Shown: positions 7,837-53,600 of the stretch, one piece after another
Layout: every line of letters starts with the position of its first letter
Position numbering within the stretch: the stretch's first letter is position 1
NCBI GenBank assembly: GCA_933228675.1
Contig: OW121743.1
Location: 58,916,581-58,980,580 of the forward strand
DNA from: Stomorhina lunata
Taxonomy: Eukaryota; Arthropoda; Insecta; Diptera; Rhiniidae
Reading direction: 5' to 3'
Length of the DNA stretch: 64,000 nucleotides
Translations under genes and position numbers: made by a program
Notes under the pieces: generated by a model
Database searches by the model: none
The model's input: the letters and a program-made list of their open reading frames with translations, nothing else
What the model was told of the DNA's origin: nothing

Positions 7837-9125
7837 ATGGGTGTTTTTTTTTAGAGGTAAAGAACTTCGAATTGAAATAAAACACAAGAAAATCGTTTTA
7901 ATGTCCATCAATTTGGCTTTATTGGAAGGATAATTTTATGCCATTAATGTTTAAATATGATTTCGGGCATGTGGCCGCCGCGGCTGGCTCGAATAAAGCC
8001 AATTCTACAGGTCCAATTTTCAACTACTTTTTCGAGTATATGGGGCCGTATGTTGGCAATAACGCCACGAATGTTGGCTTCCAAGTCCCCTAATGTTTCT
8101 GGTTTGTTGGCGTAGACGAGCGACTTCACATATCCCCAAAGAAAATAATCCAGTGGTGTCAAATCGCACGATCTTGGTGGCCAATTGACAGGTCCATTCC
8201 GCGAAATTATGCGCTCATCGAATGTTTCCTTCAATAAATCAATAGTGACGTGCGCTGTGTGGCATGTAGCGCCGTCTTGTTGGAACCACAACTCATCCAC
8301 ATTCATGCCATCCAATTGGGGAACAAAATAGTCGGTTATCATGGCTCTATGGTAACTGACTCTCCAGCATTATTTCGGAAGAAGTATGGCCCAATAACAC
8401 CACCAGCCCATAGAGTACACCAAACAGTCAGTTTTTGTGGATGTAATGGCGTCTCAAGGGTCTCATGTGGATTATCTTCACTCCAAATGCGTCAATTTTG
8501 CTTGTTGACGTAGCCATTCAACCAAAAATGAGCCTCATCGCTGAACAAAATTTTGCGATGAAAATCAGCATCGAGATCAATCTCATTTTCGGCCCATACA
8601 CCAAAATCACGACGCATTGCATGGTCTCGCAGCTTTACTTCTTGCACAAGCTGGATCTTGTAAGGTCGCAAGCCAAGATCTTTGCGCAAAATCTTCCATA
8701 AAGTTGATGGACAAAGCTCCAATTGCTGTGCACGGTGGCGAATCGATTCATTCGGGTCCTCTTCAACACTTTGCTCTACAGCGGCAATTGTTTCTTCGAT
8801 GCGCACTGTTCGACGTCGCTGCGGATGCGTATTATCACATAGAGTAAACGTAGTGCGAAAACGATCCATGGTTAACCGAATTAATTGCTCTAATGGACGA
8901 TTATGTCGACCATAAAATGGACGGAGCTTGCGGTAAACTTCGCGAACTGAACCATTATTTTCGAAATAAATTTGCACGATTTGCAAGCGTTGTTCTTTTG
9001 TCAACCTGTTCATGATGAAATGGCAAACCAAACTAAATATTAATCACTTGACAGCTGACAAAATGGCCGCCAGTTAAAAAAGTGATGTCAACTTATAGTT
9101 CTATACCTCAATAAAAAACACCCGA
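7837..9125 (-). mobile_element. rosa-like (DD41D) Tc1/mariner-superfamily element, copy 1
   Basis: A 1289-bp element flanked by TA on both sides (7835-7836 and 9126-9127), as expected for the IS630/Tc1/mariner superfamily. Its ends are imperfect inverted repeats of about 28 bp that share GGGTGTTTTTT and GAGGTATAGAACTT. The encoded transposase has 41 residues between the second and third catalytic aspartates, the spacing of the DD41D (rosa/Visitor) group. Copy 2 at 42128-43396 is near-identical and in opposite orientation. This copy is dead: its gene has a stop and a 16-bp deletion. Confidence 0.88.
7944..9031 (-). pseudogene. DD41D transposase, inactivated (copy 1)
   Basis: A cut-and-paste transposase, broken. 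The frame opens at 9031; the methionine six codons later (9013) starts the conserved protein MNRLTKEQRLQIVQIYF. An N-terminal helix-turn-helix region is followed by the first catalytic Asp in FSDEAHFWLNGY, the second in WFQQDGATCHTA and the third in LTPLDYFLWGY. Compared with copy 2, a TGC codon just after NGYVNKQN has become TGA (8489-8491). A 16-bp deletion near 8350 shifts the frame, so the C-terminal part (8342 down to 7944, beginning MITDYFVPQ) is out of frame with the N-terminal part. A full-length family member would be about 345-360 residues. It retains an 11-codon segment around residue 200 that copy 2 has lost. Confidence 0.88.
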
Positions 9126-10439: not shown

Positions 10440-11110
10440 CCGATCAACACATAGTTTGCATAGTTTACAGTTTAACTCATTTTGAAAAATTTTGGAAATT
10501 GGTCATACCAACAGAAACCTCCGTCGACTCATGCGCAACAACTTTGCTAAAGACTATAGCTTGATCAAGTCCACAGTTTACGATTTAATTCATTTTGAGT
10601 AGTTTTCAGTGGCGCCACCTGAAGTTGTTCATACAAAATAAGAAACCTTCGTCTGCTTATGAGTAAGAACTTTGCTTATGATTATAACATGATCAAATGC
10701 ACAGTTTACGATTTAATTAATTTTGAGTAATTTTCAGTGGCGCCACCTATCACACTTTTATCATTCCCAATAATAAACCTTCGTCGGCTTATCCGCAACA
10801 ACTTTGCTAAAGATTATAGCATGATTAAATGTACAGCTTACGATTAAATTGACTTTGAGTAAATTTCAGTAGCGCCACCTGTCGAAATTTCTTCATACCA
10901 ACTAAGAAACCTTCGTCGGCTCATGTGCAACAACTTTGCTAAAGATCATAGCATGATCAAATGTACAGTTTACGATTTAATTAATTTTTAGTAATTTTCA
11001 GTGGCGCCACCTAACGGAAATTAGTCTTGCCAACTTTAAAACCTTCGCCGGCTTATCCGCAACATCTTTGCTAAAGAGCATGACATGATCAAATTCATAG
11101 TTTACTATTC
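10440..11110 (-). repeat. Tandem 100-130 bp units inside Helitron 1
   Basis: Units share CAACAACTTTGCTAAAGA, then CAGTTTACGATTTAATT, then CAGTGGCGCCACCT. About six units are recognisable, each diverged. The same array occurs in Helitron 2 at 14930-15560. Such internal minisatellites are common in non-autonomous Helitrons. Confidence 0.8.
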
Positions 11111-11993: not shown

Positions 11994-12985
11994 CGGCCCA
12001 AGAACTGCCAGCGGCTTAATTAGTAAACAAATTACGTGCTGTGAGAAAATGGTGGGAAAATAATTTTTCCAGAATATTTTTTTTAACATTTATTAAAAAA
12101 AGTTTAAAATTTTTTCAGAGGGTTGTTGAATTTACAGCCATTCCGCTAGAGAACATGCCACCTTCTTCATCAGACGAATGGAAGCTTGATTTATCTAATG
12201 ACGTAAAGTATTTGCTTCAAATGGCTTCAGCAATATCGAATGGTTTTATTTCTGTTGACTTAGCTAACATAAAGCCTGGACCTGTAGCGCACTCCCGTTG
12301 GTTAACCAAGGCCAGCAGAATTTTACGATTGTACGTCGCAACAAGTTCACCCACTAGTTACTTAAAAACTCTAGCAGAGTACGTAATAAGAGTTTATGTT
12401 CCCATGTACTTTAACATCAAATACTACAATTCTGTTATTTACGGCAGTACGCTTTTATTTAAGTTTATTCGCCTCACACAGTTTCTTCCCTTGAATGTGC
12501 GGCAAATTGTTTACTCTGTAGTTCAAAATAACTCATACTTTGCTCATCCAGAAAATGTTATGCTTTCAATGCTTTACGATGATCGTAAATCAATACGCGA
12601 CCAGGCAATACAAAAAATTTTGTACTACCGTAACAAACTTTGCGATGCAGAAAAACTTAGAGAGTACAAAAAATGTAAAATTAATTTTGACTGCTGCAAT
12701 TATTTCAATATGATAGATTTAGATGATGACAGTATTTTATCAGAACCACCAATTACAAGAGATATTCCGTATGACTATTTGAAGGAATATTTAGAATTTC
12801 AAGATCCACCACTTCCTGACCCACAAGTTCCATGCCACATTCAAGGAACTGAACGATGCGTTAAACTTTTAACCAGTGTTTCTCGGCGCGTAACGGAAAA
12901 AAATCGTGAAAGTATTATGGCTGTGACTGATGTTAGTCGAAAAAAAAATCCACGCTTGGAAAGCAGGCAGGACTTAAAAACTTAG
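11994..12985 (+). CDS. Transposon-encoded protein, two-exon 5'-truncated remnant
   Basis: Two exons can be proposed. Exon 11994-12051 follows the acceptor ATTTTTAG and encodes GPRTASGLISKQITCCEKM. Then comes an intron of 67 nt (donor GTGGGA at 12052, acceptor TTTTTTCAG ending at 12118), phase 0 on both sides, then exon 12119-12985 beginning RVVEFTAIPLENMPP and ending at TAG. The open frame starting at 12041 therefore begins inside the intron, and its first 26 codons are probably not translated. The protein of about 308 residues contains VAHSRWLTKASRILRLYV and SYFAHPENVMLSMLYDDRKS. From memory these resemble uncharacterised transposon-associated proteins in many arthropods and Hydra. Position inside 8-bp-TSD inverted repeats suggests a hAT-type transposase C-terminus. 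The N-terminal part is missing, so it is probably inactive. Codon use is ordinary, and no stop or frameshift interrupts the main exon. Confidence 0.6.
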
Positions 12986-14721: not shown

Positions 14722-16211
14722 CTAGTACCTGGTAGACCGAGCCTTGCTCGGAGCTTTATGATAAGCATTTTGAGGAAAATTTTAAAGTTTTTATATATTT
14801 TATATTATAAAGTGCTAAAATAAATTTAGAGGAAAGACATTGTAGAAATATTCAGTTAATTTTGAATTATTTGATTTATTTTGTCCGACCAACACATAGT
14901 TTGCATAGTTTACAGTTTAACTCATTTTGAATAATTTTGGAAATTATTTATATCAACAGAAACCTCTGTCGACTCATGCGCAACAACTTTGCTAAAGATT
15001 ATAGTCTGATCAAATGCACAGTTTACGATTTAATTCATTTTGAGTAGTTTTCTGTGGCACCACCTGTCGGACTTTGCTTATTCCAATTCATAAACCTTCT
15101 TCGGCTTATCCGTAACAACTTTGCTGAAGATTATAGCATGATTAAATGTACAGCATACGATTAAATTGACTTTGAGTAAATTTCAGTAGCGCCACCTGTC
15201 GAAATTTCTTCATACCAACTAATAAACCTTCGTCGGCTCATGTGCAACAACTTTGCTAAAGATTGTAGCATGATTAAATGTACAGATTACGATTAAATTG
15301 ACTTTGAGTAAGTTTCTGTAGCGACACCTGTCGGACATTATTCATATCAACTAAAAAGCCTTCGTCGGCTCATGCGCTACAACTTTGCTAAAGATCATAG
15401 AATGATCAAATGTACAGTTTACGATTTAATTAATTTTTAGTAATTTTCAGTGGCGCCATCTGTCGGAAATTAGTCTTATCAACTTTAAAACCTTCGCCGG
15501 CTTATCCGCAACATCTTCGCTAAAGAGCATAACACAATCAAATTCACAGTTTACTATTCTATAAAGAACATACATACAGACAAACATTCATTTGTTTAAA
15601 ATAATACTAATTTTTCCCCCTTTTTATTCCCTAATTTCTAAAAGTTCCATATGTATATTTGGTACTTTTTTGGTGCCAATTGAATTCGGTACATTTTTTT
15701 AAAACGCATTTAACATAATGTATAATGTTCCTATTCATATTACTTTGGAGATGTTAAGTTATCATTTTATCCCTTTTTTACCCATTTTGGCTCCAAAATC
15801 AAAAAAGCACCAAATACGTGTTTCATGTTTTTTTTTACATCTATTGATTGCAGTACCAAGTTTCTTTCTATATTCTTTAGTTTAAAATATAAGAGTGGGT
15901 TAAAAAGGTGCCAAAAAAACTATTTTCACCCTTTTTTACCCCCTATCGGACATAGTTTCAAAAAAGTACCAAGCACCTGTCCGCTTATTTTCAAAGCTGT
16001 TTAAAACGTAATTTTAATTTTCTTTCTATACCTATTACTTTAGGAGACATAGCGTTTTCGATTTTTCCCCTTTTTACCCGTTTTTACCCTCTTAGAGTTA
16101 AAAGTTCCAAAAGTCCCTTCTTCTTCGACCTATACATCAAAAAAGATACCCACTGTCCAAATTTTATCAAAATCGTTAGAGCCGTTTTCGAGATAGCCAT
16201 TCTATATAAGA
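14722..16211 (-). mobile_element. Helitron 2, non-autonomous
   Basis: On the minus strand it runs from TCTTATATAGAATGGC (5', ending the plus-strand interval at 16211) to CTAG (3', 14725-14722), with the hairpin CCGAGC-AAG-GCTCGG at 14751-14737. It lies between A (14721) and T (16212), as Helitrons do. Joining the two flanks restores the reverse transcriptase reading LMR-YRMT, matching the usual LIRLCRMTL order. It shares the hairpin, tandem units and the CCCCCTTTTTA region with Helitron 1. No Rep/helicase gene. Confidence 0.88.
14930..15560 (-). repeat. Tandem 100-130 bp units inside Helitron 2
   Basis: Same unit as in Helitron 1: CAACAACTTTGCTAAAGA, CAGTTTACGATTTAATT and a CCACCTGTCGGA-like segment, about six imperfect units. 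Confidence 0.8.
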
Positions 16212-30604: not shown

Positions 30605-32177
30605 AAATTTTTTTATATCGAAAAATTTTCTATAGAAAATTTTTCATTTCGAAAAATTGCCTATAAAAATTTTTTCATATCGAAAAATTTTCTAAAGAAA
30701 TTTTTTCATACCAAAACATTTCTATGAAAGTATTTTCAAATCGAAAAATGTTCTTTAAAAAATTTTTCATATCTAAAAGTTTTCTATTGAAAAATATATA
30801 AAAATTCTTTAAAAAATTGTTCATATCTAAAAGTTTTCTATTGAAATTTTTCATATCGAAAAATTTTCTATCAAAATTTTTCATATCAAAAAATTTCCTA
30901 TTGAAATTTTTTCATATCAACAAATTTCCTATAAAATTTTTTTTCATAAAGAAAAATTTTCTATACAAATTTTTTCATATCGAAAAACTTTCTATAGAAA
31001 TTTTTTCATATCAAAAAATTTTTTTTTTAAATCTTTTCATATCGAGAAATTTTCCATAGAAATTTTTTATATCGAAAAATTTTTTTAAAGAAATTTTTTC
31101 ATATTGAAAAATTTTCTATAGAAATTTTTTCATACTCAAAATTTTCTTTGAAAATTTTTTGATATCATGGAAATTTTATCATATCAAAAAATTTTCTATG
31201 GAAATTTTTCATATCAAAATATTTTCTATAGAAATTATTTATATCGAAAAGTTTCTATAGAAATTTTTTCATATCGAAAAATTTTCATATCGAAAAATTT
31301 TCTATAGAAATTTCTTCATATCGAAAAATTGTATAGAAATTTTTTCATATCAAAAAATTTTATATAGAAATTTTTCATATCGAAAAATTTTTTTCATATC
31401 GAAAAATTTCTTTCATATCGAACAATTTTTTTCATATCGAAATATTTTCCATAAAAATTTTTTCAAAACTAATATTTTCTATAGAAAATATTTTGCATTA
31501 AAAAGTATTCTATAAAAATTGTTTCATATCGAAAAATTTCCTAAAGAAATTTTTTCATATCGAAAAATTTCCTAAAGAATTTTTTTCATATCGAAAAATT
31601 TCCTAAAGAAATTTTTTCATATCGAAAAATTTTTTAAAGTTTATATAGAAATTTTTTCATATCGAAAAATTTTCTATAGAACTTTCTTCATATCGAAAAA
31701 TTGTATAGAAATTTTTTCATATCGAAAAATTTTATATAGAAATTTTTCATATCGAAAAATTTTTTTCATATCAAAAAATTTTTTTCATATCGAACAATTT
31801 TTTCATATCGAAATATTTTCTATAGAAATTTTTTCATTTCGAAAAATTTTTTATGGAAATATTTTCATATCAAAAATTTTCTATAGATATTTTTTTATAA
31901 CAAAAAATTTTCTAAAGAAATTTTTTCATATCGAAAAATGTTCTAAAGAAATGTTTATTATCCAAAAATTTTCTATAGAAATTTTTTCACATCTAAAAAT
32001 TTTCTATAGAAATTTTTTCATATCGAAAAATTTTCTATAGAAATTTTTTTCATACCGAAAAATTTTCTTTAATAATTTTTTCATACCGAAAAATTTTCTT
32101 TAGAAATTTTTTCATATCGAAAAATTTTCTTTAGAAATTTTTTCATATCGAAAAATTTTCTATAGAAATTTTTTCAT
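30605..32177. repeat. AT satellite block 4 (CATATCG / CTATAG type)
   Basis: Units of about 28 bp with TTTTTTCATATCGAAAAATT and TTTCTATAGAAA. The same dialect continues at 37302, so blocks 4 and 5 were one array before the 465-bp inverted array inserted between them. Confidence 0.92.
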
Positions 32178-32190
32178 ATTGAAAGATTTT
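32178..32190 (+). repeat. 13-bp direct repeat, left flank of inverted array
   Basis: ATTGAAAGATTTT occurs immediately left of the array and again at 37289-37301 immediately right. The usual satellite word here is ATTGAAAAATTTT; the G variant is uncommon, which favours a target-site duplication over chance. Confidence 0.6.
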
Positions 32191-35100
32191 ATTTGGGAAT
32201 TAATTATTCGAACTTTAGAATTGATTGAAAAATTAGGTTTAATCAGGCTTGAGTTCATTTAACTTTCAAATTATTAATTTTGAAAATTTGAAAAGTAATT
32301 GTGGAGAAAAAAAACTGAAAAAATTATTTTTGAACGCGGCTCAGTGGATTGCAATTTCTGTCCCGCCACAGGACGTCATCAGCACTTAGCGCCCTCGACC
32401 ACAGTCGAGTTGTCAAATCGCAGAGATAATCATCAATTTAACTCATTGAGTTTGATCGAACATCACTACGTTTAATTGATTGTGTATTCTCCTATTACTT
32501 GTTTTGCTCGATCTTTTCACTTGCCGTTGGCATGTAGAGAAGAACAAGACTTTTTGGTTTGATGCTATTTTTAGAATAGTAACAATGTTAACAACATATG
32601 TATGTAAGTAAATTACATGAATGTATGTAAATGCAACGTGCCCTTTGCTTTTATTTATTTGGGAATTAATTATTCGAACTTTAGAATTGATTGAAAAATT
32701 AGGTTTAATCAGGCTTGAGTTCATTTAACTTTCAAATTATTAATTTTGAAAATTTGAAAAGTAATTGTGGAGAAAAAAACTGAAAAAATTATTTTTGAAC
32801 GCGGCTCAGTGGATTGCAATTTCTGTCCCGCCACAGGACGTCATCAGCACTTAGCGCCCTCGACCACAGTCGAGTTGTCAAATCGCAGAGATAATCATCA
32901 ATTTAACTCATTGAGTTTGATCGAACATCACTACGTTTAATTGATTGTGTATTCTCCTATTACTTGTTTTGCTCGATCTTTTCACTTGCCGTTGGCATGT
33001 AGAGAAGAACAAGACTTTTTGGTTTGATGCTATTTTTAGAATAGTAACAATGTTAACAACATATGTATGTAAGTAAATTACATGAATGTATGTAAATGCA
33101 ACGTGCCCTTTGCTTTTATTTATTTGGGAATTAATTATTCGAACTTTAGAATTGATTGAAAAATTAGGTTTAATCAGGCTTGAGTTCATTTAACTTTCAA
33201 ATTATTAATTTTGAAAATTTGAAAAGTAATTGTGGAGAAAAAAACTGAAAAAATTATTTTTGAACGCGGCTCAGTGGATTGCAATTTCTGTCCCGCCACA
33301 GGACGTCATCAGCACTTAGCGCCCTCGACCACAGTCGAGTTGTCAAATCGCAGAGATAATCATCAATTTAACTCATTGAGTTTGATCGAACATCACTACG
33401 TTTAATTGATTGTGTATTCTCCTATTACTTGTTTTGCTCGATCTTTTCACTTGCCGTTGGCATGTAGAGAAGAACAAGACTTTTTGGTTTGATGCTATTT
33501 TTAGAATAGTAACAATGTTAACAACATATGTATGTAAGTAAATTACATGAATGTATGTAAATGCAACGTGCCCTTTGCTTTTATTTATTTGGGAATTAAT
33601 TATTCGAACTTTAGAATTGATTGAAAAATTAGGTTTAATCAGGCTTGAGTTCATTTAACTTTCAAATTATTAATTTTGAAAATTTGAAAAGTAATTGTGG
33701 AGAAAAAAACTGAAAAAATTATTTTTGAACGCGGCTCAGTGGATTGCAATTTCTGTCCCGCCACAGGACGTCATCAGCACTTAGCGCCCTCGACCACAGT
33801 CGAGTTGTCAAATCGCAGAGATAATCATCAATTTAACTCATTGAGTTTGATCGAACATCACTACGTTTAATTGATTGTGTATTCTCCTATTACTTGTTTT
33901 GCTCGATCTTTTCACTTGCCGTTGGCATGTAGAGAAGAACAAGACTTTTTGGTTTGATGCTATTTTTAGAATAGTAACAATGTTAACAACATATGTATGT
34001 AAGTAAATTACATGAATGTATGTAAATGCAACGTGCCCTTTGCTTTTATTTATTTGGGAATTAATTATTCGAACTTTAGAATTGATTGAAAAATTAGGTT
34101 TAATCAGGCTTGAGTTCATTTAACTTTCAAATTATTAATTTTGAAAATTTGAAAAGTAATTGTGGAGAAAAAAACTGAAAAAATTATTTTTGAACGCGGC
34201 TCAGTGGATTGCAATTTCTGTCCCGCCACAGGACGTCATCAGCACTTAGCGCCCTCGACCACAGTCGAGTTGTCAAATCGCAGAGATAATCATCAATTTA
34301 ACTCATTGAGTTTGATCGAACATCACTACGTTTAATTGATTGTGTATTCTCCTATTACTTGTTTTGCTCGATCTTTTCACTTGCCGTTGGCATGTAGAGA
34401 AGAACAAGACTTTTTGGTTTGATGCTATTTTTAGAATAGTAACAATGTTAACAACATATGTATGTAAGTAAATTACATGAATGTATGTAAATGCAACGTG
34501 CCCTTTGCTTTTATTTATTTGGGAATTAATTATTCGAACTTTAGAATTGATTGAAAAATTAGGTTTAATCAGGCTTGAGTTCATTTAACTTTCAAATTAT
34601 TAATTTTGAAAATTTGAAAAGTAATTGTGGAGAAAAAAACTGAAAAAATTATTTTTGAACGCGGCTCAGTGGATTGCAATTTCTGTCCCGCCACAGGACG
34701 TCATCAGCACTTAGCGCCCTCGACCACAGTCGAGTTGTCAAATCGCAGAGATAATCATCAATTTAACTCATTGAGTTTGATCGAACATCACTACGTTTAA
34801 TTGATTGTGTATTCTCCTATTACTTGTTTTGCTCGATCTTTTCACTTGCCGTTGGCATGTAGAGAAGAACAAGACTTTTTGGTTTGATGCTATTTTTAGA
34901 ATAGTAACAATGTTAACAACATATGTATGTAAGTAAATTACATGAATGTATGTAAATGCAACGTGCCCTTTGCTTTTATTTATTTGGGAATTAATTATTC
35001 GAACTTTAGAATTGATTGAAAAATTAGGTTTAATCAGGCTTGAGTTCATTTAACTTTCAAATTATTAATTTTGAAAATTTGAAAAGTAATTGTGGAGAAA

Positions 35101-35196
35101 AAAACTGAAAAAATTATTTTTGAACGCGGCTCAGTGGATTGCAATTTCTGTCCCGCCACAGGACGTCATCAGCACTTAGCGCCCTCGACCACAGTC
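32191..35196 (-). repeat. Left arm of 465-bp inverted array, about 6.4 units
   Basis: Head-to-tail 465-bp units read leftward: six full units plus about 210 bases. Units are identical by eye except for an A-run: the outermost unit has eight A (around 32305) where inner units have seven. Each unit contains a hammerhead motif, the hairpin CTCGAC-CACA-GTCGAG, and a 93-codon frame. The frame is carried along by the DNA and has no recognisable domain. This and the right arm form one mobile unit about 5.1 kb long. Confidence 0.95.
32339..32390 (-). ncRNA. Hammerhead ribozyme-like motif in left-arm units
   Basis: Minus-strand mirror of the motif described at 35264-35315. The complement of CTGATGA is at 32376-32382. 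Identical copies spaced 465 bp lie at 32804-32855, 33269-33320, 33734-33785, 34199-34250, 34664-34715 and 35129-35180, giving seven in this arm. Confidence 0.65.
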
Positions 35197-35247
35197 GAGT
35201 TGTCAAATCGCAGAGATAATCATCAATTTAACTCATTGAGTTTAATT
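35197..35247. other. 51-bp centre of inverted array
   Basis: The only part of the array not mirrored. It contains the near-palindrome TTTAACTCATTGAGTTTAA. Its left part is ordinary unit sequence (TCAAATCGCAGAGATAATC), so the right arm begins after a jump from ATTGAGTTT to AATTGACTGTGG. This is where replication or reverse transcription switched template, or where two units recombined. Confidence 0.85.
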
Positions 35248-37288
35248 GACTGTGGTCGAGGGCGCTAAGTGCTGATGACGTCCTGTGGCGGGACAGAAAT
35301 TGCAATCCACTGAGCCGCGTTCAAAAATAATTTTTTCAGTTTTTTTCTCCACAATTACTTTTCAAATTTTCAAAATTAATAATTTGAAAGTTAAATGAAC
35401 TCAAGCCTGATTAAACCTAATTTTTCAATCAATTCTAAAGTTCGAATAATTAATTCCCAAATAAATAAAAGCAAAGGGCACGTTGCATTTACATACATTC
35501 ATGTAATTTACTTACATACATATGTTGTTAACATTGTTACTATTCTAAAAATAGCATCAAACCAAAAAGTCTTGTTCTTCTCTACATGCCAACGGCAAGT
35601 GAAAAGATCGAGCAAAACAAGTAATAGGAGAATACACAATCAATTAAACGTAGTGATGTTCGATCAAACTCAATGAGTTAAATTGATGATTATCTCTGCG
35701 ATTTGACAACTCGACTGTGGTCGAGGGCGCTAAGTGCTGATGACGTCCTGTGGCGGGACAGAAATTGCAATCCACTGAGCCGCGTTCAAAAATAATTTTT
35801 TCAGTTTTTTTCTCCACAATTACTTTTCAAATTTTCAAAATTAATAATTTGAAAGTTAAATGAACTCAAGCCTGATTAAACCTAATTTTTCAATCAATTC
35901 TAAAGTTCGAATAATTAATTCCCAAATAAATAAAAGCAAAGGGCACGTTGCATTTACATACATTCATGTAATTTACTTACATACATATGTTGTTAACATT
36001 GTTACTATTCTAAAAATAGCATCAAACCAAAAAGTCTTGTTCTTCTCTACATGCCAACGGCAAGTGAAAAGATCGAGCAAAACAAGTAATAGGAGAATAC
36101 ACAATCAATTAAACGTAGTGATGTTCGATCAAACTCAATGAGTTAAATTGATGATTATCTCTGCGATTTGACAACTCGACTGTGGTCGAGGGCGCTAAGT
36201 GCTGATGACGTCCTGTGGCGGGACAGAAATTGCAATCCACTGAGCCGCGTTCAAAAATAATTTTTTCAGTTTTTTTCTCCACAATTACTTTTCAAATTTT
36301 CAAAATTAATAATTTGAAAGTTAAATGAACTCAAGCCTGATTAAACCTAATTTTTCAATCAATTCTAAAGTTCGAATAATTAATTCCCAAATAAATAAAA
36401 GCAAAGGGCACGTTGCATTTACATACATTCATGTAATTTACTTACATACATATGTTGTTAACATTGTTACTATTCTAAAAATAGCATCAAACCAAAAAGT
36501 CTTGTTCTTCTCTACATGCCAACGGCAAGTGAAAAGATCGAGCAAAACAAGTAATAGGAGAATACACAATCAATTAAACGTAGTGATGTTCGATCAAACT
36601 CAATGAGTTAAATTGATGATTATCTCTGCGATTTGACAACTCGACTGTGGTCGAGGGCGCTAAGTGCTGATGACGTCCTGTGGCGGGACAGAAATTGCAA
36701 TCCACTGAGCCGCGTTCAAAAATAATTTTTTCAGTTTTTTTCTCCACAATTACTTTTCAAATTTTCAAAATTAATAATTTGAAAGTTAAATGAACTCAAG
36801 CCTGATTAAACCTAATTTTTCAATCAATTCTAAAGTTCGAATAATTAATTCCCAAATAAATAAAAGCAAAGGGCACGTTGCATTTACATACATTCATGTA
36901 ATTTACTTACATACATATGTTGTTAACATTGTTACTATTCTAAAAATAGCATCAAACCAAAAAGTCTTGTTCTTCTCTACATGCCAACGGCAAGTGAAAA
37001 GATCGAGCAAAACAAGTAATAGGAGAATACACAATCAATTAAACGTAGTGATGTTCGATCAAACTCAATGAGTTAAATTGATGATTATCTCTGCGATTTG
37101 ACAACTCGACTGTGGTCGAGGGCGCTAAGTGCTGATGACGTCCTGTGGCGGGACAGAAATTGCAATCCACTGAGCCGCGTTCAAAAATAATTTTTTCAGT
37201 TTTTTTTCTCCACAATTACTTTTCAAATTTTCAAAATTAATAATTTGAAAGTTAAATGAACTCAAGCCTGATTAAACCTAATTTTTCA
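35248..37288 (+). repeat. Right arm of 465-bp inverted array, about 4.4 units
   Basis: Four full 465-bp units plus about 182 bases, reading rightward, complementary to the left arm. The outermost unit again has the eight-base homopolymer (around 37200), inner units seven. The arm ends at CCTAATTTTTCA, about 36 bases short of the point where the left arm ends, so the two outer ends are not symmetrical. Confidence 0.95.
35264..35315 (+). ncRNA. Hammerhead ribozyme-like motif in right-arm units
   Basis: Core CTGATGA at 35272-35278 and GAAA at 35296-35299. Stem I pairs AGUG (35268-35271) with CACU (35308-35311), then an A/G mismatch, then GCU (35264-35266) with AGC (35313-35315). Stem II is six pairs from GUCCUG/CGGGAC with a UGG loop, above a C/A mismatch at 10.1/11.1 where a pair is normal. 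Stem III is the short palindrome AUUGCAAU (35299-35306). Cleavage is predicted after C35307 in AUC. Further copies: 35729-35780, 36194-36245, 36659-36710, 37124-37175. Tandem units with one hammerhead each are known in newt, schistosome and cave-cricket satellites and in retrozymes; activity here is inferred. Confidence 0.65.
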
Positions 37289-37301
37289 ATTGAAAGATTT
37301 T
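37289..37301 (+). repeat. 13-bp direct repeat, right flank of inverted array
   Basis: Second copy of ATTGAAAGATTTT (see 32178-32190). The satellite resumes with CTATAGAAATTTTTTCATATTG in phase with the expected pattern. Confidence 0.6.
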
Positions 37302-42127: not shown

Positions 42128-43396
42128 TCGGGTGTTTTTTATTGAGGTATAGAACTTTAAGTTGGCATCACTTTTTTAACTGGCGGCCATTTTGTCAGCT
42201 GTCAAGTGATTAATATTTAGTTTGGTTTGCCATTTCATCATGAACAGGTTGACAAAAGAACAACGCTTGCAAATCGTGCAAATTTATTTCGAAAATAATG
42301 GTTCAGTTCGCGAAGTTTACCGCAAGCTCCGTCCATTTTATGGTCGACATAATCGTCCATCAGAGCAATTAATTCGGTTAACCATGGATCGTTTTCGCAC
42401 TACGTTTACTCTATGTGATAATACGCATCCGCAGCGACGTCGAACAGTGCGCACCGAAGAAACAATTGCCGCTGTAGAGCAAAGTGTTGAAGAGGACCCG
42501 AATGAATCGATTCGCCACCGTGCACAGCAATTGGAGCTTTCCATCAACTTTATGGAAGATTTTGCGCAAAGATCTTGGCTTGCGACCTTAAAAGATCCAG
42601 CTTGTGCAAGAATTAAAGCCACGAGACCATGCAATGCGTCGTGATTTTGGTGTATGGGCCGAAAATGAGATTGATCTCGATGCTGATTTTCATCGCAAAA
42701 TTTTGTTCAGTGATGAGGCTCATTTTTGGTTGAATGGCTACGTCAACAAGCAAAATTGCCGCATTTGGAGTGAAGAGAATCCACATGAGACCCTTGAGAC
42801 GCCATTACATCCACAAAAACTGACTGTTTGGTGTGCTCTATGGGCGGGTGGAGTCATTGGGCCATACTTAAATGGAGACCGGTATAGAGCCATGATAACC
42901 GACTATTTTGTTCCCCAATTGGATGGCATGAATGTGGATGAGTTGTGGTTCCAACAAGACGGCGCTACGTGCCACACAGCGCAAGTCACAATTTATTTAT
43001 TGAAGGAAACATTCGATGAGCGCATAATTTCGCGAAATGGACCTGTCAATTGGCCACCAAGATCGTGCGATTTGACACCACTGGACTATTTTCTTTGGGG
43101 ATATGTGAAGTCGCTCGTCTACGCCAACAAACCAGAAACGTTAGGGGACTTGGAAGCCAACATTCGTGGCGTTATTGCCAACATACGACCCCATATGCTC
43201 GAAAAAGTAGTTGAAAATTGGACCTGTAGAATTGGCTTTATTCGAGCCAGCCGCGGCGGCCACATGCCCGAAATCATATTTAAACATTAATGGCATAAAA
43301 TTATCCTTCCAATAAAGCCAAATTGATGGACATTAAAACGATTTTCTTGTGTTTTATTTCAATTCGAAGTTCTATACCTCTAAAAAAAACACCCAT
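42128..43396 (+). mobile_element. rosa-like (DD41D) Tc1/mariner-superfamily element, copy 2
   Basis: A 1269-bp element flanked by TA (42126-42127 and 43397-43398). Its ends, TCGGGTGTTTTTTATTGAGG and the complement of a similar GGGTGTTTTTTTTAGAGG, match copy 1. It is 20 bp shorter than copy 1, fully explained by its 33-bp and 2-bp deletions, the 16-bp deletion in copy 1, and one base in a homopolymer. Confidence 0.9.
42222..43290 (+). pseudogene. DD41D transposase, inactivated (copy 2)
   Basis: Same transposase as copy 1. The likely start is the second methionine (42240, MNRLTKEQ). Residues 1-110 cover the paired helix-turn-helix region. A 2-bp loss after AATTGGAGCTTT (about 42541) shifts the frame, and translation would stop at 42644. 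The catalytic part continues in another frame from about 42604 to 43290, with FSDEAHFWLNGY, WFQQDGATCHTA and LTPLDYFLWGY intact and 41 residues between the last two Asp. A 33-bp in-frame deletion near 42869 removes eleven codons present in copy 1 and leaves PYLNGD. The Cys codon that is TGA in copy 1 is intact here. Confidence 0.9.
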
Positions 43397-44335: not shown

Positions 44336-47300
44336 GTTTATCAAAAAATTTCTTTAAAAAATGTTTGATATCAAAAAAATTTCTTTAAAAAATTTTTGAT
44401 ATCAAAAATTTCTACTGAAAATTTTTTGATATAAAAAAATTTCTATAGAAAATTTTTTGATATGAAAAATTTTTTTTTATATACAAAAATTTCTATTGAA
44501 AATTTTTTTTATATCAAATTTTTTCATATCAAATTTTTTTTTTGCAAAATTATTGATATGAAAAAATTCCCATAAAAAATTTTTTGTGGTAAAAAAAAAT
44601 TCTTAAGAAAATTTTTTGATATAAAAAAACCTTATAGATGTTATATAGAAAACTTTTTTAAACGAAAAAATTTTTTTAGAAAATTTTTTTTAAATGAAAA
44701 AACGTCTATAGAAAATTTTTCGTTATAAAAATTATATTTGAAATTTTTTTGTTGTGAAAAAATTTCTATGAAAAAAATTCTATACAAAATTTTTTGTTAC
44801 GAAAAAATTTCTATAGAAAATTTTTTGTCATATAAGAATTCTAAGAATATTTTTTGTCACGAAAAAAATTCTATGGAAATTTTTTTGTTATGAAAAAATT
44901 TTTTTGCTATGAAAAAATTTCTAAAGAAATTTTTTTGTTATGAATAAATATCTATAGAAAATATTTCGTTATGAAAAAATGTCTATACAAAATTTTTCTA
45001 TATAAAAAAATTTCAATAGAAAATTTCTCTACATGAAAAATTTCCATAGAAAATTTTTCTATATGAAAAAATGTCTATAGAAAATTTTTCAATATGAAAA
45101 AATTTCTATAGACAATTTTTCTAGGTGAAAAAATTTCTATGGAAAATTTTTCTGTGTGAAAAAATTTCTATAGAAAATTTTTCTATGTGAAAAAATTTCC
45201 ATAGAAAATTTTTCTATATGAAAAAATTTTTATAGAAAATTTTTCGATATGAAAAAATTTCTATAGAAAATTTTTCGATATGAAAAAATTTCTATAGAAA
45301 ATTTTTCGATATGAAAAAATTTCTATAGAAAATTTTTCGATATGAAAAAATTTCTATAGAAAATTTTTCGATATGAAAAAATTTCTATAGAAATTTGTAT
45401 ACAAAATTTTTTGATATGAAAAAATTTCTATAGAAAATTTTTCGATATAAAAAAATTTCCATAGAAAAATTTTATAGAAAATTTTTCGATATGAAAAAAT
45501 TTCTATAGAAAATTTTTCGATATGAAAAAATTTCTATAGGAAATTTTTCGATATGAAAAAATTTCTATAGAAAATTTTTCGATATGAAAAAATTTCTATA
45601 GAAAATTTTTCGATATGAAAAAATTTTTATAGAAAATTTTCGATATGAAAAAATTTTTATAGAAAATTTTTCGATATGAAAAAATTTCTATAGAAAATTT
45701 TTCGATATGAAAAAATTTCAATAGAAAATTTTTCGATATGAAAAAATTTCTATAGAAAATTTTTCGATATGAAAAAATTTCTATAGAAAATTTTTCGATA
45801 TGAAAAAATTTCTATAGAAAATTTTTCGATATGAAAAAATTTCTATAGAAAATTTTTCGATATGAAAAAATTTCTATAGAAAATTTTTCGATATGAAAAA
45901 ATTTCTATAGAAAATTTTTCGATATGAAAAAATTTCTATAGAAAATTTTTCGATATGAAAAAATTTCTATAGAAAATTTCTATAGAAAATTTTTCGATAT
46001 GAAAAAATTTCTATAGAAAATTTTCGATATGAAAAAATTTCTATAGAAAGTTTTTCGATATGAAAAAATTTCTATAGAAAATTTTTCGATATGAAAAAAT
46101 TTCTATAGAAAATTTTTCGATATAAAAAAATTTCTATAGAAAATTTTTCGATATGAAAAAATTTCTATAGGAAATTTTTCGATATGAAAAAATTTCTATA
46201 GAAAATTTTTCGATATGAAAAAATTTCTATAGAAAATTTTTCGATATGAAAAAATTTTTATAGAAAATTTTCGATATGAAAAAATGTTTATAGAAAATTT
46301 TTCGATATGAAAAAATTTCTATAGAAAATTTTTCGATATAAAAAAATTTCTATAGAAAATTTTTCGATATGATAAAATTTCAATAGAAAATTTTTCGATA
46401 TGAAAAAATTTCTATAGAAAATTTTTCGATATGAAAAAATTTCTATAGAAAATTTTTCGATATGAAAAAATTTCTATAGAAAATTTTTCGATATGAAAAA
46501 ATTTCTATAGAAAATTTTTCGATATGAAAAAATTTCTATAGAAAATTTTTCGATATGAAAAAATTTATATAGAAAATTTTTCGATATGAAAAAATTTCTA
46601 TAGAAAATTTTTCTATGTGAGAACATTTCTATAGAAAATTTTTCTATATGAAAAAATTTCTATAGACAATTTTTCTATGTAAAAAAAAATTTATATAGAA
46701 AATTTTTCTATGTAAAAAAATTTCTATAGAAAATTTTTCAATATGAAAAAATTTCTATAGACAATTTTTCTATGTGAAAAAATTTCTATAGAAAATTTTT
46801 CTTTATAAAAAAATTTCTATAGAAAATGTCTCTATGTGAAAAAATTTCCATAGAAAATTTTTCTATATGAAAAAATTTCTATAGAAAATTTTTCGATATG
46901 AAAAAATTTCTAAAGAAAATTTTTCGATATGAAAAAATTTCTATAGAAAATTTTCGATATGGAAACATTTCCATAGAAAATTTTTCGATATGAAAAAATT
47001 TCTATAGAAAATTTTCGATATGAAAAAATTTCTATAGAAAATTTTCGATATGAAAAAATTTCTATAGAAAATTTTTCGATATAAAAAATTTCTATAGAAA
47101 ATTTTTCGATATGGAAAAATTTCCATAGAAAATTTTTCGATATGAAAAAATTTCTAAAGAAAATTTTTCGATATGAAAAAATTTCTATTGAAAATTTTTC
47201 GATATGAAAAAATTCCTATAGAAAATTTTTCGATATGAAAAAATTTCTATAGAAAATTTTTCGATATGAAAAAATTTCTATAGAAAATTTTTCGATATGA

Positions 47301-47830
47301 AAAAATTTCTAAAAAAAATTTTTCGATATGAAAAATTAAAAAAATTTTTGATATGAAAAAATTGCTATAGAAAATTATAAAAAAAAATAAAAAAAAAATA
47401 TAAAAAAAAAATTGTACAGAAAATTTTTCGATATGAAAAAATTTCTAAGGAAAATTGTCAAATATGAAAAAATTTCTATGGAAAAAATTTCGATATGAAA
47501 AAATTTCGATATGAAAAAATTTCTATAGAAAATTTTTTAAAATGAAAAAAATTTTATAGAAAATTTTTCGATATAAAAAAATTTCTATAGAAAATTTTTC
47601 GATATGAAAAAATTTCTATAGAAAACTTTTTGGTATAATAAAGATTCTATAGTTTTTTTTTGGTATCAAAAAGTTAATATACAAAACTTTTTTACATAAA
47701 AAATTTTTGTTGAAAATTTTTTGATATAAATTTTTTTTTTTTATACAAAAAATTTTTGTAAAATTTTTATTATATTTTTTGATATGAATAAATTTCTAAA
47801 TAGATTTTTTTTGATGAGAAAATAAATAAC
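44336..47830. repeat. AT satellite block 6 (CGATATG / CTATAG, 31-bp type)
   Basis: Highly regular 31-bp units, TTTTTCGATATGAAAAAATT plus TCTATAGAAAA, dominate 45230-46610 and 46880-47320; the flanks are decayed. A segment near 45620-45740 resembles 46240-46390 (shared CGATATG units with one T lost and a CAATAG variant), indicating a duplication of about 620 bp. Confidence 0.94.
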
Positions 47831-48959
47831 CAAATCTAAAACTAGACTTCTAAATTTTAAATAAAAAACAATTATTTTCCCATAAAATTTGTCTATAGAA
47901 AGTTCGCCAAATTTGGTTTTTTATTAAATAAATATTTATTTTGTCAACAAAAAGTCTTCTTTATTAATTTTTGTCATTGTTTAAATAATAATAGAAGTTA
48001 AATAAATAACTCATCACAATTTTCTTTGTTAGTATTTAAACAAAAATTTGAACTTCAAGCGAAAAACAGAAAAAATTCTTTAAACAAAAGTAGACAAAAG
48101 ACAAGCCCATATTTAGCGTGAAACCAATAAAAATTCTTACGCATTTAGTCAAGATGGACAGACAGACAGAAACAGAAGAAGAAGTCCAAGAAGAGCCACT
48201 TTTTGGTTAAAGAAAGATACTAAAATTAGACTTTTGACTATTTTTTTACAAATTTAACGGTTTTGTAGCTAAAAAGAATCTATGATGTCACTTGAAGTTT
48301 AAAATGAATATATTTCAACACTTGCCTAAGAAAATTTCTAAGATTTTTGCTTAAGCCCTAAATAAAATCTGAAGGTCATTTTCTTATTGTTCCAAATGAC
48401 CTTTGGATATATTTTTAACAAAATAATTTAATTAATTCAATTATTGTTGAAAAATCTAAATAGGCTTAATAAATTTCCAAAAGAAAAAAAAATAATATAA
48501 CTCCAAAAATTCAAAAAAATTTTAGAAAAACAAACATGAAACCTGAGAGTTATAATGAGGAAGTTAATAAGATTAAAATTGTTTAATTGACTTTTTGGTT
48601 AAAAATAAAAAAGCAAATTATTAAATCTTTGTTGTTTGTTTAAAATTGGTTTTGTCATTTAATTAAAAACTTACGAATTATTAAGTCGACTCAAATTTAA
48701 ATTTATCTTCTATCTTACACCTTTTAACAAATTTCCAGCTTCTAAATAACCATAAATCTTCACTCAAATGACCTCTATTACGTCATTTATTTAAACTATT
48801 TTCAAAAATGAAGGAAATATATAATTAACATTTTTATTATGACATTAAAACGTCAGTTTGAAGACAATGAATGTCTAAAGTTTAATAAGCCAACTAATTT
48901 GAATTGTAAGATTATTTAAATAAATTTCAAGGGTTTGAAATATAACAAAAACAAATTTT
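47831..48959. other. Spacer of 1.1 kb, no gene recognised
   Basis: AT-rich unique sequence, no open frame of note and no transposon ends. Confidence 0.5.
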
Positions 48960-51900
48960 TCAAAACTAAAAATTTTCTATAGAAATTTTTTGTATCGAAA
49001 AATTTTCGATAAAAAATTTCTATATCAAAAAATTTCCTATCGAAAATTTTTGTATCAAAAAATTTTCTATAGAAAATTTTTCCATCAAAAAATTTCCAAT
49101 TTTTGTATCAAAAAATTTCCAATCGAAAATTTTTTTACAGAAAAGTTTTTATAAAGAAAAATTTTATATAAAAAATTTTTAAATAGAAAAATTTTCTATG
49201 GAGCATTTTTATATATAAAATTTCCTATAGAAACATTTTTATATAGAAAAAATTCCTATAGCAAAATTTATATAGAAAAATTTCCTATAGAAAATTTTTA
49301 TATTGAAAAATTTTCTATAGAAAATTTTTATATTGAAAAATTTTCTATAGAAAATTTTTATATTGAAAAATTTTCTATAGAAAATTTTTATATTGAAAAA
49401 TTTTCTATAGAAAATTTTTATATTGAAAAATTTTCTATAGAAAATTTTTATATTGAAAAATTTTCTATAGAAAATTTTTATATTGAAAAATTTTCTATAG
49501 AAAATTTTTATATTGAAAAATTTTCTATAGAAAATTTTTATATTGAAAAATTTTCTATAGAAAATTTTTATATTGAAAAATTTTCTATAGAAAATTTTTA
49601 TATTGAAAAATTTTCTATAGAAAATTTTTATATTGAAAAATTTTCTATAGAAAATTTTTATATTGAAAAATTTTCTATAGAAAATTTTTATATTGAAAAA
49701 TTTTTATATTGAAAAATTTTCTATAGAAAATTTTTATATTGAAAAATTTTCTATAGAAAATTTTTATATTGAAAAATTTTCTATAGAAAATTTTTATATT
49801 GAAAAATTTTCTATAGAAAATTTTTATATTGAAAAATTTTCTATAGAAAATTTTTATATTGAAAAATTTTCTATAGAAAATTTTTATATTGAAAAATTTT
49901 CTATAGAAAATTTTTATATTGAAAAATTTTCTATAGAAAATTTTTATATTGAAAAATTTTCTATAGAAAATTTTTATATTGAAAAATTTTCTATAGAAAA
50001 TTTTTATATTGAAAAATTTTCTATAGAAAATTTTTATATTGAAAAATTTTCTATAGAAAATTTTTATATTGAAAAATTTTCTATAGAAAATTTTTATATT
50101 GAAAAATTTTCTATAGAAAATTTTTATATTGAAAAATTTTCTATAGAAAATTTTTATATTGAAAAATTTTCTATAGAAAATTTTTATATTGAAAAATTTT
50201 CTATAGAAAATTTTTATATTGAAAAATTTTCAATAGAAAATTTTTATATTGAAAAATTTTCTATAGAAAATTTTTATAACGAAAAATTTTCTATAGAAAA
50301 TTTTTATAACGAAAAATTTTCTATAGAAAATTTTTATAACGAAAAATTTTCTATAGAAAATTTTTATAACGAAAAATTTTCTATAGAAAATTTTTATAAC
50401 GAAAAATTTTCTATAGAAAATTTTTATAACGAAAAATTTTCTATAGAAAATTTTTATAACGAAAAATTTTCTATAGAAAATTTTTATATCGAAAAATTTT
50501 CTATAGAAAATTTTAATATCGAAAAATTTTCTATAGAAAATTTTAATATCGAAAAATTTTCTATAGAAAATTTTAATATCGAAAAATTTTCTATAGAAAA
50601 TTTTTATATCGAAAAATTTTCTATAGAAAATTTTTATATCGAAAAATTTTCTATAGAAAATTTTTATATCGAAAAATTTTAATATCGAAAAATTTTCTAT
50701 AGAAAATTTTAATATCGAAAAATTTTCTATAGAAAATTTTAATATCGAAAAATTTTCTATAGAAAATTTTTATATCGAAAAATTTTCTATAGAAAATTTT
50801 TATATCGAAAAATTTTCTATAGAAAATTTTTATATCGAAAAATTTTCTATAGAAAATTTTTATATCGAAAAATTTTCTATAGAAAATTTTTATATCGAAA
50901 AATTTTCTATAGAAAATTTTTATATCGAAAAATTTTCTATAGAAAATTTTTATATCGAAAAATTTTCTATAGAAAATTTTTATATCGAAAAATTTTCTAT
51001 ATTTTTCGATATAAAATTTTTCGATATAAAATTTTTCGATATAAAAATTTTCTATAGAAAATTTTTATATCGAAAAATTTTCTATAGAAAATTTTTATAT
51101 CGAAAAATTTTCTATAGAAAATTTTTATATCGAAAAATTTTCTATAGAAAATTTTTATATCGAAAAATTTTCTATAGAAAATTTTTATATCGAAAAAGTT
51201 TCTATAGAAAATTTTTATATCGAAAAATTTTCTATAGAAAATTTTTATATCGAAAAATTTTCTATAGAAAATTTTTATATCGAAAAATTTTCTATAGAAA
51301 ATTTTTATATCGAAAAATTTTCTATAGAAAATTTTTATATCGAAAAATTTTCTATAGAAAATTTTTATATCGAAAAATTTTCTATAGAAAATTTTTATAT
51401 CGAAAAATTTTCTATAGAAAATTTTTATATCGAAAAATTTTCTATAGAAAATTTTTATATCGAAAAATTTTCTATAGAAAATTTTTATATCGAAAAATTT
51501 TCTATAGAAAATTTTTATATCGAAAAATTTTCTATAGAAAATTGTTATATCGAAAAATTTTCTATAGAAAATTTTTATATCGAAAAATTTTCTATAGAAA
51601 ATTTTTATATCGAAAAATTTTCTATAGAAAATTTTTATATCGAAAAATTTTCTATAGAAAATTTTTATATCGAAAAATTTTCTATAGAAAATTTTTATAT
51701 CGAAAAATTTTCTATAGAAAATTTTTATATCGAAAAATTTTCTATAGAAAATTTTTATATCGAAAAATTTTCTATAGAAAATTTTTATATCGAAAAATTT
51801 TCTATAGAAAATTTTTATATCGAAAAATTTTCTATAGAAAATTTTTATATCAAAAAATTTTCTATAGAAAATTTTTATATCGAAAAATTTTCTATAGCAA

Positions 51901-53600
51901 ATTTTCTATAAATAATTTTTATATAGAAAAATTTCCTTAAGAAAATTTTTATATCAAAAATTTCCTTAAGAAAATTTTTATATCGAAAAAGTTCATAAAG
52001 AAAATTTGTTTTTCTATAGGAAATTTTATATCGAAAAATTTTTTATATAAAATTTTTATACAGAAAAATTTCCTATAGAAATTTTTATATTTAGAAATTC
52101 TATACCGAAAACTTTCCTATCAAAAATGTTTATATCGAAAAGTTTTCTATAGAAATTTTTTCTATTGAAAAGTTTTCTATAGAAATTTTTTCTTTGAAAA
52201 ATTTTCTATAGAAATTTTTTCTATTGAAAAGTTTTCTATAGAAATTTTTTCTATTGAAAAATTTTTACAGAAATTTTTTCTATAGAAATTTTTTCTATTG
52301 AAAAATTTTTATAGAAATTTTTTCTATTGAAAAGTTTTCCATAGAATTTTTTTCTATTCAAAAATATTCTGCAGAAATTTTTTCTATTCCAAAACTTTCA
52401 TAGGAAACTTTTTCTATTGAAAAATTTGCTATTAAAAAATTTTCGATAGAAATTTTTTCTATTAAAAATTTTCTATAGAAATTTTTTCTATTAAAAAATT
52501 TTCTATACAAATTTTTTCTATTTAAAAATTTTCTATAGAATTTTTTTTTAAAGCAATTTTTTATATTGAAAAATTGTCTACAGACATTTTTTCTATTGAA
52601 GAATTTTCGATAGAATTTTTTTCTATTGAAAAGTTTTCCATAGAATTTTTTTCTATTCAAAAATATTCTGCAGAAATTTTTTCTATTCCAAAACTTTCAT
52701 AGGAAACTTTTTCTATTGAAAAATTTGCTATTAAAAAATTTTCGATAGAAATTTTTTCTATTAAAAAATTTTCTATAGAAATTTTTTCTATTGATAAATT
52801 TTCTATAGAAAATTTATTACAAATTTTTTCACTTGAGAAATTTTCTTTTGAAATTTTTTATATTAAAAAATTTTTTATAGAAGTATTTCATATTAAAAAA
52901 TTCTCTATAGCAATTTGTTTATATGAAAAAAATTGCTATCAAAATTTTTCATATTAAAAAATTTTCTAGAAATTTATTGTGTCAAAAAAATTTTCTATAG
53001 AATTTTTTATAGTAAAAAAGAAATTTTGTTATTTAAAAGATTTTCTATAGAAATTTTCTTATTTTAGAAAGTTTCTATAGAAATTTTTCATATCAAACAT
53101 TTTTATAGAAATTTCTTATATTTAAAAAGTTTCTATAACATTTTTTCATACTAAAAAAGTTTTTATAGAAATTTTTCATTTCAAAAAGTTCTATAGAAAT
53201 TTTTCATATAAAAAAGTTTTTATAAAATTTTTCCGTATTAAGAACTTTGTATAGAATTTTTTCTTATCAACAAATTTTCTATAGAAATTTTACATATTAA
53301 AAAATTTTTCATAGAAATTTTTAAATTTAAAATTTTATATGAAAATTCTTCTAATTAAAAATTGTCTACAGAATTTCTTCATATTAAAAAATTTTCGATA
53401 GAAATTTTTCATTTTAAAAAATTTATTATAGAAAATTTTAATATTAAAAAATTGTCTATAGAATTTTTTTTGTATTTAAAAAGTTTCTATATAAATTGTT
53501 CATGTTTAAAAATTTTCTGTGAAATTTTTCCATATCAAAAATACTTTTTTATGTTTATTTTCTATAGAAATTTATTTATATTATGGATTTCCTTTAAAGA
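48960..53600. repeat. AT satellite block 7, containing the 30-bp core array
   Basis: The centre (about 49311-51895) is a near-perfect 30-bp tandem array of some 86 units. The flanks decay into 28-bp CTATTG and AT-type units (52140-53600). A 300-bp segment is repeated at 52324-52480 and 52622-52760. The long open frames at 49693-50682 (329 codons) and 51542-51940 (132 codons) are the repeat read in phase and not genes. Confidence 0.95.
49311..51895 (+). repeat. Homogeneous 30-bp array with variant runs
   Basis: The unit is ATTTTCTATAGAAAAT plus a 14-base linker whose centre varies: TATATTG units up to about 50270, then seven consecutive TATAAC units (50275-50460), then TATATC and AATATC units. 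A group of three AATATC units is present twice (50511-50580 and 50681-50750) with a truncated unit at the junction, the footprint of unequal exchange or slippage. At 51001-51045 three 15-bp half-units lie in reversed form. Confidence 0.95.

Follow-up and report, generated by a model that had tools for sequence, protein, structure and literature searches.

What kind of element lies as two facing arrays of one 465-bp unit in the genome of the fly Stomorhina lunata, and how did its arms come to stand head to head? The array occupies ~32191-37288 (~5.1 kb, unit period exactly 465 bp) of a 64,000-nt stretch of contig OW121743.1, forward strand 58,916,581-58,980,580, which is called the window below. 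Judged from its sequence, the array is a single young insertion of a non-autonomous, retrozyme-like retroelement, and its mobility is very probably due to Penelope-like elements (PLEs) of this fly, acting in trans. The inverted layout is read as an integration footprint because the ends of the insertions match the two-site ends of PLEs in the same genome. The insertion and its target are made up as follows.

31170..32190, resuming at ~37282 and running to 38983, unstranded: target, an AT-rich 31-bp tandem repeat array
32178..32190, unstranded: left copy of the 13-bp target-site duplication ATTGAAAGATTTT
32191..35243, minus strand: left arm, ~6.6 units, sense on the minus strand; outer end at unit offset 194 (the long or 'tail' end)
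35223..35249, unstranded: arm junction, a 27-nt imperfect palindrome with 12 of 13 pairs
35248..37288, plus strand: right arm, ~4.4 units, sense on the plus strand; outer end at unit offset 158 (the short end)
37289..37301, unstranded: right copy of the 13-bp target-site duplication ATTGAAAGATTTT

All 10 complete 465-bp units of the array are letter-identical. A sequence-only reading of this DNA had given 465-bp units, 4.4 of them rightward and 6.4 leftward; the period and the right arm stand, and the left arm is now put at ~6.6 units, a 70-nt inner piece having been omitted. By exact matching the arms are separated by a 4-nt filler, AATT, at 35244-35247, and in BLAST coordinates they overlap by 2 nt. 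The two flanking copies of ATTGAAAGATTTT are its only occurrences in the window, and the 31-bp AT repeat is back in phase once the flanks are joined without the insert. In a control for the duplication, an exact match of at least 12 was found in 1307 of 53,400 random breakpoint pairs from the same arrays (2.4%); the chance of an identical 13-mer at two given places is 0.0033, or 2e-5 if the word is unique in each flank. The sole variants within the array are an extra T (T8, not T7) at 32307 and 37207, in the outermost unit of each arm; the run is T7 in the 10 inner window units and T5 in 166 units at other loci. The longest stop-free stretch in the tandem unit is 93 codons, and the array holds no frame of 110 codons or more, hence neither the reverse transcriptase nor the GIY-YIG frame by which an autonomous Penelope-like element is recognised.

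The 728-Mb genome was searched with the unit, which gave at least 239 matches (40 scored of 1415 first-look candidates). The insertion sample consisted of the window and 37 other loci fetched from among the matches listed (n = 38, with L043 counted as one insertion split by another element), dispersed over five contigs. Two arms were present in 30 of the 38 insertions, and in all 30 they were head to head. The sequence-only reading was aware of no fly ribozyme satellite or retrozyme described with a head-to-head inverted array; this layout is the sole two-armed form in the family sample and is known for Penelope elements (PMC3846280). The outer ends of the two-armed insertions fell at unit offsets 155-168 (30 ends) or 191-199 (30 ends), which accounts for 60/60, and every insertion had one end of each class. 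For 29 independent insertions (L031 and L032 look like a single duplicated locus), the probability of one-of-each under independent choice is 2e-9. The two end sites are 27-44 nt apart, the end positions being uncertain by a few bases because the flanks are AT-rich. The outer 3' ends of the eight one-armed insertions lay at 155, 156, 161, 163, 163, 166, 195 and 198.

Insertion targets were AT-rich, and the two flanks of an insertion matched each other better than swapped flanks did (median match score 7.75 versus 1.5, p = 1.5e-9; a score of at least 7 in 16/30 own pairs and 50/870 swapped pairs). The matching flank word was 9-16 nt long in 19/30 two-armed insertions and 5-7 nt in eight, and none was found in three. 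Among the same 30 insertions, arm lengths were mutually independent (rho = -0.03), inner ends were scattered, and the window insertion, with 11.0 units, was the longest. By BLAST coordinates, arms overlapped at 22 of the 30 junctions (21 by 1-13 nt and L019 by 40, overlaps for which there is no chance control), abutted at two and were separated by filler at six. Snap-back self-priming was rejected as a general cause of the inversion, a junction palindrome above all controls being present in just 6/30 loci. A second family (family 2) has a 570-bp unit; units range over 463-465 bp in family 1 and 570-579 bp in family 2. Its ends were found at 179/217, 177/210, 176/209 and 138/217, so that the end rule was obeyed in three of the four loci with both ends seen; one family 2 locus, L049, extends past the fetched stretch. 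Within a retrozyme unit at L043, a nested 5.5-kb element (L043:3071-8600) was seen by eye; its ends are inverted (CACAGTGGTTTACGGACGCTTT), and a short stretch of target is duplicated at its sides.

A Pfam search for GIY-YIG domains found two places only, L052 (SLX1-like by eye) and L051 (Penelope-like), and L051 was then used as query. The Penelope-type GIY-YIG query gave at least 150 matches, fragments included (150 scored of 206 candidates); 11 of the 150 scored matches lay inside open frames of 830-864 aa, and many matches formed pairs of a minus followed by a plus copy. The protein's named database relatives are from the flies Haematobia irritans and Eurosta solidaginis, and from our own reading of the sequences we take the L051-type protein to be that of a Penelope element. 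In a sample of 12 PLE 3' ends from two close subfamilies, four lay at 598-603 and seven at 630-633 of the reference piece (11/12 at two sites ~30 nt apart). Head-to-head PLE insertions had one short and one long end in 3/3 cases, and their flanks matched over 12, 13 and 13 nt at best, values that come without a control. The PLE group L060, L062-L073 appears by eye to have a degenerate hammerhead core, TTGAAAA, and yet 11/12 ends follow the two-site rule.

The sequence-only reading had supposed that RNAs are made outward from a central point of the array; the head-to-head layout is instead explained as a retro-insertion footprint common with Penelope-like elements. A central divergent promoter was dropped as a candidate, the layout being accounted for by the integration footprint; a plain TATAA was not found in the 465-bp unit, no promoter scan having been made.

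The retrozymes and the PLEs may also share a structure at their start sites, given here for the first unit of the right arm.

35397..35443, plus strand: proposed reverse-transcription start module, stem GAACU (35397-35401) / AGUUC (35439-35443) with a 37-nt loop, resembling the PLE module
35476..35486, plus strand: GGGCACGTTGC block, 3' of the second start site

Four copies of the module lie on the plus strand of the window and seven on the minus strand. The first start site is in the loop of the stem and the second is 3' of it, followed by a GGGCAC-like block; the counterparts of GGGCACGTTGC are GGGCACCGCG in family 2 and GAGCACGCCG, GGGCCCGCCG or GAGGCACGCCG in PLEs. A 5-bp stem was found at the start sites of five PLEs and both retrozyme families, with the reverse-complement 5-mer occurring once in each (7/7). 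Its forms are GACCU/AGGUC or GACCA/UGGUC in PLEs, GAACU/AGUUC in family 1 and GAACC/GGUUC in family 2, and the chance of finding the 3' stem partner is 0.022 for family 1 and 0.006 for family 2. In the alignment of the seven stems, 95.2% of the cells pair and two of six pairs show two-sided change; stem covariation was 0.381 versus 0.114 (0/500 shuffles), and slid controls paired at 50% or less. A T-arm-like stretch, GGATTCGAACCC, lies in the start-module loop of the family 2 unit L046, despite which no tRNA gene was predicted in the family 2 unit.

What was copied can be traced through variants present in at least two units of a locus. Such variants filled every covering unit in 26/33 columns and were partial in seven (L012, L014, two each at L029 and L043, and the T8 of the window); columns are not always separate events, one insertion in L028 giving four and the TT of the window two. 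For columns covered by both arms and variant in at least two units, the arms agreed in 19 (one of them, at L014, a 1-of-2 tie) and disagreed in none, over 12 loci. Some concordant variants are private to one locus, and u81, u429 and u436 recur in three to four loci. Variants present in two loci or fewer were mostly confined to a single unit (236/258 cases, alignment-edge noise included), and after trimming they amounted to 58 substitutions per 72,551 bases. A variant found throughout both arms of an array implies that one unit served as the template, and each insertion accordingly seems to go back to a single unit. The template was probably a circular monomer RNA used by both strands. The T8/T7 pattern of the window was considered as proof of a linear template and found weak, genome-wide variants pointing the other way.

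The units also carry a 69-nt hammerhead-like region, present in the window in five copies on the plus strand and seven on the minus strand.

35257..35325, plus strand: copy in the first plus unit, with its CTGATGA core at 35272 and a cleavage site predicted just 3' of the C at 35307
35722-35790, 36187-36255, 36652-36720 and 37117-37185, plus strand: the other plus copies
32329..32397 and regions starting at 32794, 33259, 33724, 34189, 34654 and 35119, minus strand: the seven minus copies

The core has C3 U4 G5 A6 N7 G8 A9, G12 A13 A14, A15.1-U16.1 and an H17 (here C17). The sequence around it allows three stems to be drawn, namely AGUG/CACU as stem I, a stem II of 6 bp and a palindromic stem III of 2-3 bp (AUUGCAAU). 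Palindromic stem III is a trait of hammerheads thought to work as dimers (PMC7229834, PMC3088659). The base pair 10.1-11.1 is absent, the bases being C/A in family 1 and A/A in family 2; in hammerhead conservation this pair is second only to A15.1-U16.1, and Perreault et al. discarded matches mispaired there unless activity had been measured (PMC3088659). A strict descriptor with 10.1-11.1 paired consequently had zero matches in the window, because these bases are C/A. A descriptor tolerating the mispair matched in the window at the 12 motif copies only, and gave 0/3000 in shuffled units and one match across 20 shuffled windows. The earlier count of 12 identical motifs with hammerhead layout thus holds for 12 copies of the 69-nt region and for a layout above chance, with the 10.1/11.1 pair mispaired.

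In the 69-nt stretch, stems I and II were predicted as likely (0.8-1.0); the probability of stem I dropped to 0.08 or less in 4/8 stretches tried, and a 72-nt stretch folded no better than shuffles (z = 0.22). The unit as a circle was stabler than 100/100 shuffles. The 69-nt motif was identical in 162/171 full copies of the genome sample, with nine distinct forms, and such near-invariance leaves no covariation within family 1. The compensatory changes for which the sequence-only reading had looked to diverged copies are therefore missing within the family; the family 2 motif keeps the core and GUCC/GGAC, and its stems I and III are different but paired. The genome-wide search with RF00163 found nothing, but 0/14 controls were detected either, so that the search is uninformative. 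A canonical-core pattern with stem II starting GNCC, blind to other stems, had 0 matches in the genome, and a variant hammerhead pattern had 0 matches in viral contigs. A recognisable hammerhead was present in 4/9 PLE 5' regions fetched from the same genome; in our parse each of the four carries an extra base directly after CUGANGA, and its stem III is a palindrome of 4 nt. Because the extra base is in all four, the odd base may be common to PLE and retrozyme hammerheads here and not a private defect. With C/A at the foot of stem II, no match in Rfam and a predicted fold that is unfavourable, the motif is called hammerhead-like rather than canonical.

How the parts might act together can be set out as a proposal. 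The ribozyme would cut transcripts of the unit, perhaps in dimeric form or aided by protein, and these would be closed into circles. The PLE reverse transcriptase-endonuclease would cut both strands of the target, and the two target 3' ends would serve as primers on a single RNA, at the loop site and just 3' of the stem respectively. Both syntheses would circle the RNA several times, and the two cDNAs would then be joined, often at short overlaps, into a head-to-head multimer. In its most specific form, two reverse transcriptases would sit on one RNA circle, one per neighbouring start site, both rolling; tail and head-to-head form would be direct products of this paired-initiation complex, and retrozymes its circular-RNA parasites. 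We consider this form evenly poised between right and wrong. A purified PLE protein from a lizard cuts both strands and extends them, and the tail seen in the genome is set by its two internal start sites (PMC11167929).

Several results weigh against this account, some touching the ribozyme and the circle and others the tie to PLEs. The covariance search with Rfam hammerhead models that the sequence-only reading had proposed gave no match for the unit, neither at the gathering threshold nor, for short stretches, at E values up to 10. In predicted monomer folds the probability of stem III was 0 in 8/8 stretches, and a double-hammerhead dimer reached -25.1 kcal/mol versus -50.8 kcal/mol for the best dimer fold. 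The circular unit was predicted to be 58% paired, as against 70% for retrozymes (PMC4918200). The T8 of the outermost unit in either window arm is a misfit with a uniform circle, as is one unit of L014; moreover, one-unit arrays would yield homogeneous linear transcripts, so that a common source array, and not a common circle, is possible. In vitro, uncleaved RNA was the main substrate of the lizard PLE, ribozyme cleavage was dispensable, and start sites were alike on both strands (PMC11167929). A target duplication of at least 9 nt is missing in 11/30 two-armed loci, three of which have none at all. One end of the family 2 locus L050 lies at 138 rather than 176-179, and the PLE end at L062 stops early, outside both sites (1/12). 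The five inner pairs of the start stem pair by construction because the 3' arms were picked as exact complements, and two of five stem measures were within shuffles (pairs with two-sided change, 74/500; further pair types, 41/500). BLAST of the units against the nine sampled PLE 5' regions gave only short, low-complexity matches (best E = 0.02).

Other origins for the array were weighed against the same observations. Chimeric reads can create inverted arrays, and an assembly artefact from a folded-back read would do so here; with unequal arms, different end sites, non-inverted flanks that bear a target duplication and the same rule at 30 loci, its chance is virtually nil. Twin priming, by which the reverse transcriptase of a long interspersed nuclear element (LINE) would have inserted the array, also gives head-to-head arms, target duplications and short overlaps. 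It is quite improbable as the source, predicting neither two fixed initiation sites, one of each in 30/30, nor the same two-site ends in the genome's PLEs. The array is tandem, homogeneous and AT-rich, as ordinary satellite DNA spread by unequal exchange would be, and hammerheads are found in satellites (PMC7229834). That explanation needs one inversion in addition and is left with the slimmest of chances by the target duplication and in-phase empty site at the window insertion, the loci on five contigs, the two fixed end sites and the uniform head-to-head form. Between the satellite and the retrozyme that the sequence-only reading had offered, the target duplication and fixed ends speak against an ordinary satellite, and what stands is a retrozyme-like element that has been mobile and carries a hammerhead-like motif.

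A sub-case of mobilisation by PLEs is that their machinery copied an unprocessed linear multimer and not a circle. The PLE used uncleaved RNA in vitro (PMC11167929), the ribozyme motif is non-canonical, and T8 is confined to the outermost unit of both window arms, all of which would suit a linear template. Copying a multimer would, however, leave variants confined to single units, as most are inside existing arrays (the 236/258 above, edge noise included), whereas rare variants fill every covering unit of both arms in 11/12 loci (L014 excepted, and the window save for T8); we therefore think this sub-case rather unlikely. Mobilisation in trans by PLEs, with a circular monomer as the probable template, is the reading retained below.

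Animal non-long-terminal-repeat (non-LTR) retrozymes (Cervera and de la Pena 2020, PMC7229834) resemble the fly element in being tandem, low-GC, non-coding, dispersed units with a type I hammerhead motif and in having target duplications that, where present, exceed 4 bp. They differ in size, with RNAs of ~170-400 nt and repeats of 150-450 bp versus 463-465 and 570-579 bp here, and the fly units differ from them in the extra base and the 10.1/11.1 mismatch of the hammerhead. By the features that define retrozymes, tandem form and low GC are present in the fly units and the hammerhead is only hammerhead-like. Their consistent head-to-head arms and PLE-like start stem are not described for animal retrozymes in the available parts of PMC7229834. 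With PLEs (PMC11167929, PMC3846280) the fly units share head-to-head insertion, a ~30-40-nt tail on one arm, AT-rich targets, target duplications and a hammerhead upstream of the start sites; rotifer PLEs have the head-to-head form, 8-10-bp duplications (sometimes none), a 31-bp tail and action in trans (PMC3846280). Unlike PLEs, the fly units are without reverse transcriptase or endonuclease and have many units per arm, and the 4-nt palindromes that make up stem III in the four PLE hammerheads of the same genome are shorter than their own stem III. The axolotl satellite (PMC7229834) and the Aedes aegypti repeat hammerheads (PMC3088659) are alike in a very short stem III with a palindromic loop, which suits dimeric cleavage. 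In axolotl HHR_Amex2 helix II starts with a mismatched U/U at its base (PMC7229834), the fly units have C/A at 10.1/11.1, and the Aedes aegypti repeat hammerhead RNA was inactive when assayed (PMC3088659).

PLEs have been named a 'strong candidate' for moving animal retrozymes, from shared hammerheads, tandem form and co-occurrence (PMC7229834), and the idea of retrozymes as reduced PLEs is already published (PMC11722881). Hammerheads associated with repeats are on record for Aedes (PMC3088659), and hammerheads of type III for other flies (PMC7936874). For retrozymes, the two-site footprint, the shared stem and the one-unit template look new, no report having been found in the literature searched, a search outside which PLE papers of 2014, 2017 and 2021 fell. 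As to the enzyme that moves animal retrozymes, the insertion scars in this fly agree with the scars left by its PLEs, and the rare variants common to both arms indicate a one-unit template. Because the two start sites and the two arms can be read from every insertion, the loci make the little-known insertion mechanism of PLEs testable: whether one RNA or two is used, whether it is a circle or a multimer, and whether each strand has one start site.

Beyond the array, the window consists largely of AT-rich tandem repeats of ~15-31 bp (for example 3009-6501, 44339-53542 and 58826-62171), which by eye the flanks of several PLE and retrozyme insertions resemble. A similar 132-bp repeat forms two arrays of ~4.5 copies each at 10513-11109 and 14960-15558. 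Two similar broken copies of what we take, from our own reading, to be a mariner/Tc1-like transposase lie in opposite orientation at 7944-9043 (minus strand) and 42210-43290 (plus strand); Pfam gives only the DUF4817 helix-turn-helix part. A 321-codon frame at 12020-12985 (plus strand) has no Pfam match; its best named relative is the uncharacterised LOC125780355 of Bactrocera dorsalis (60%), and it has a 99% match to a source labelled lgn.

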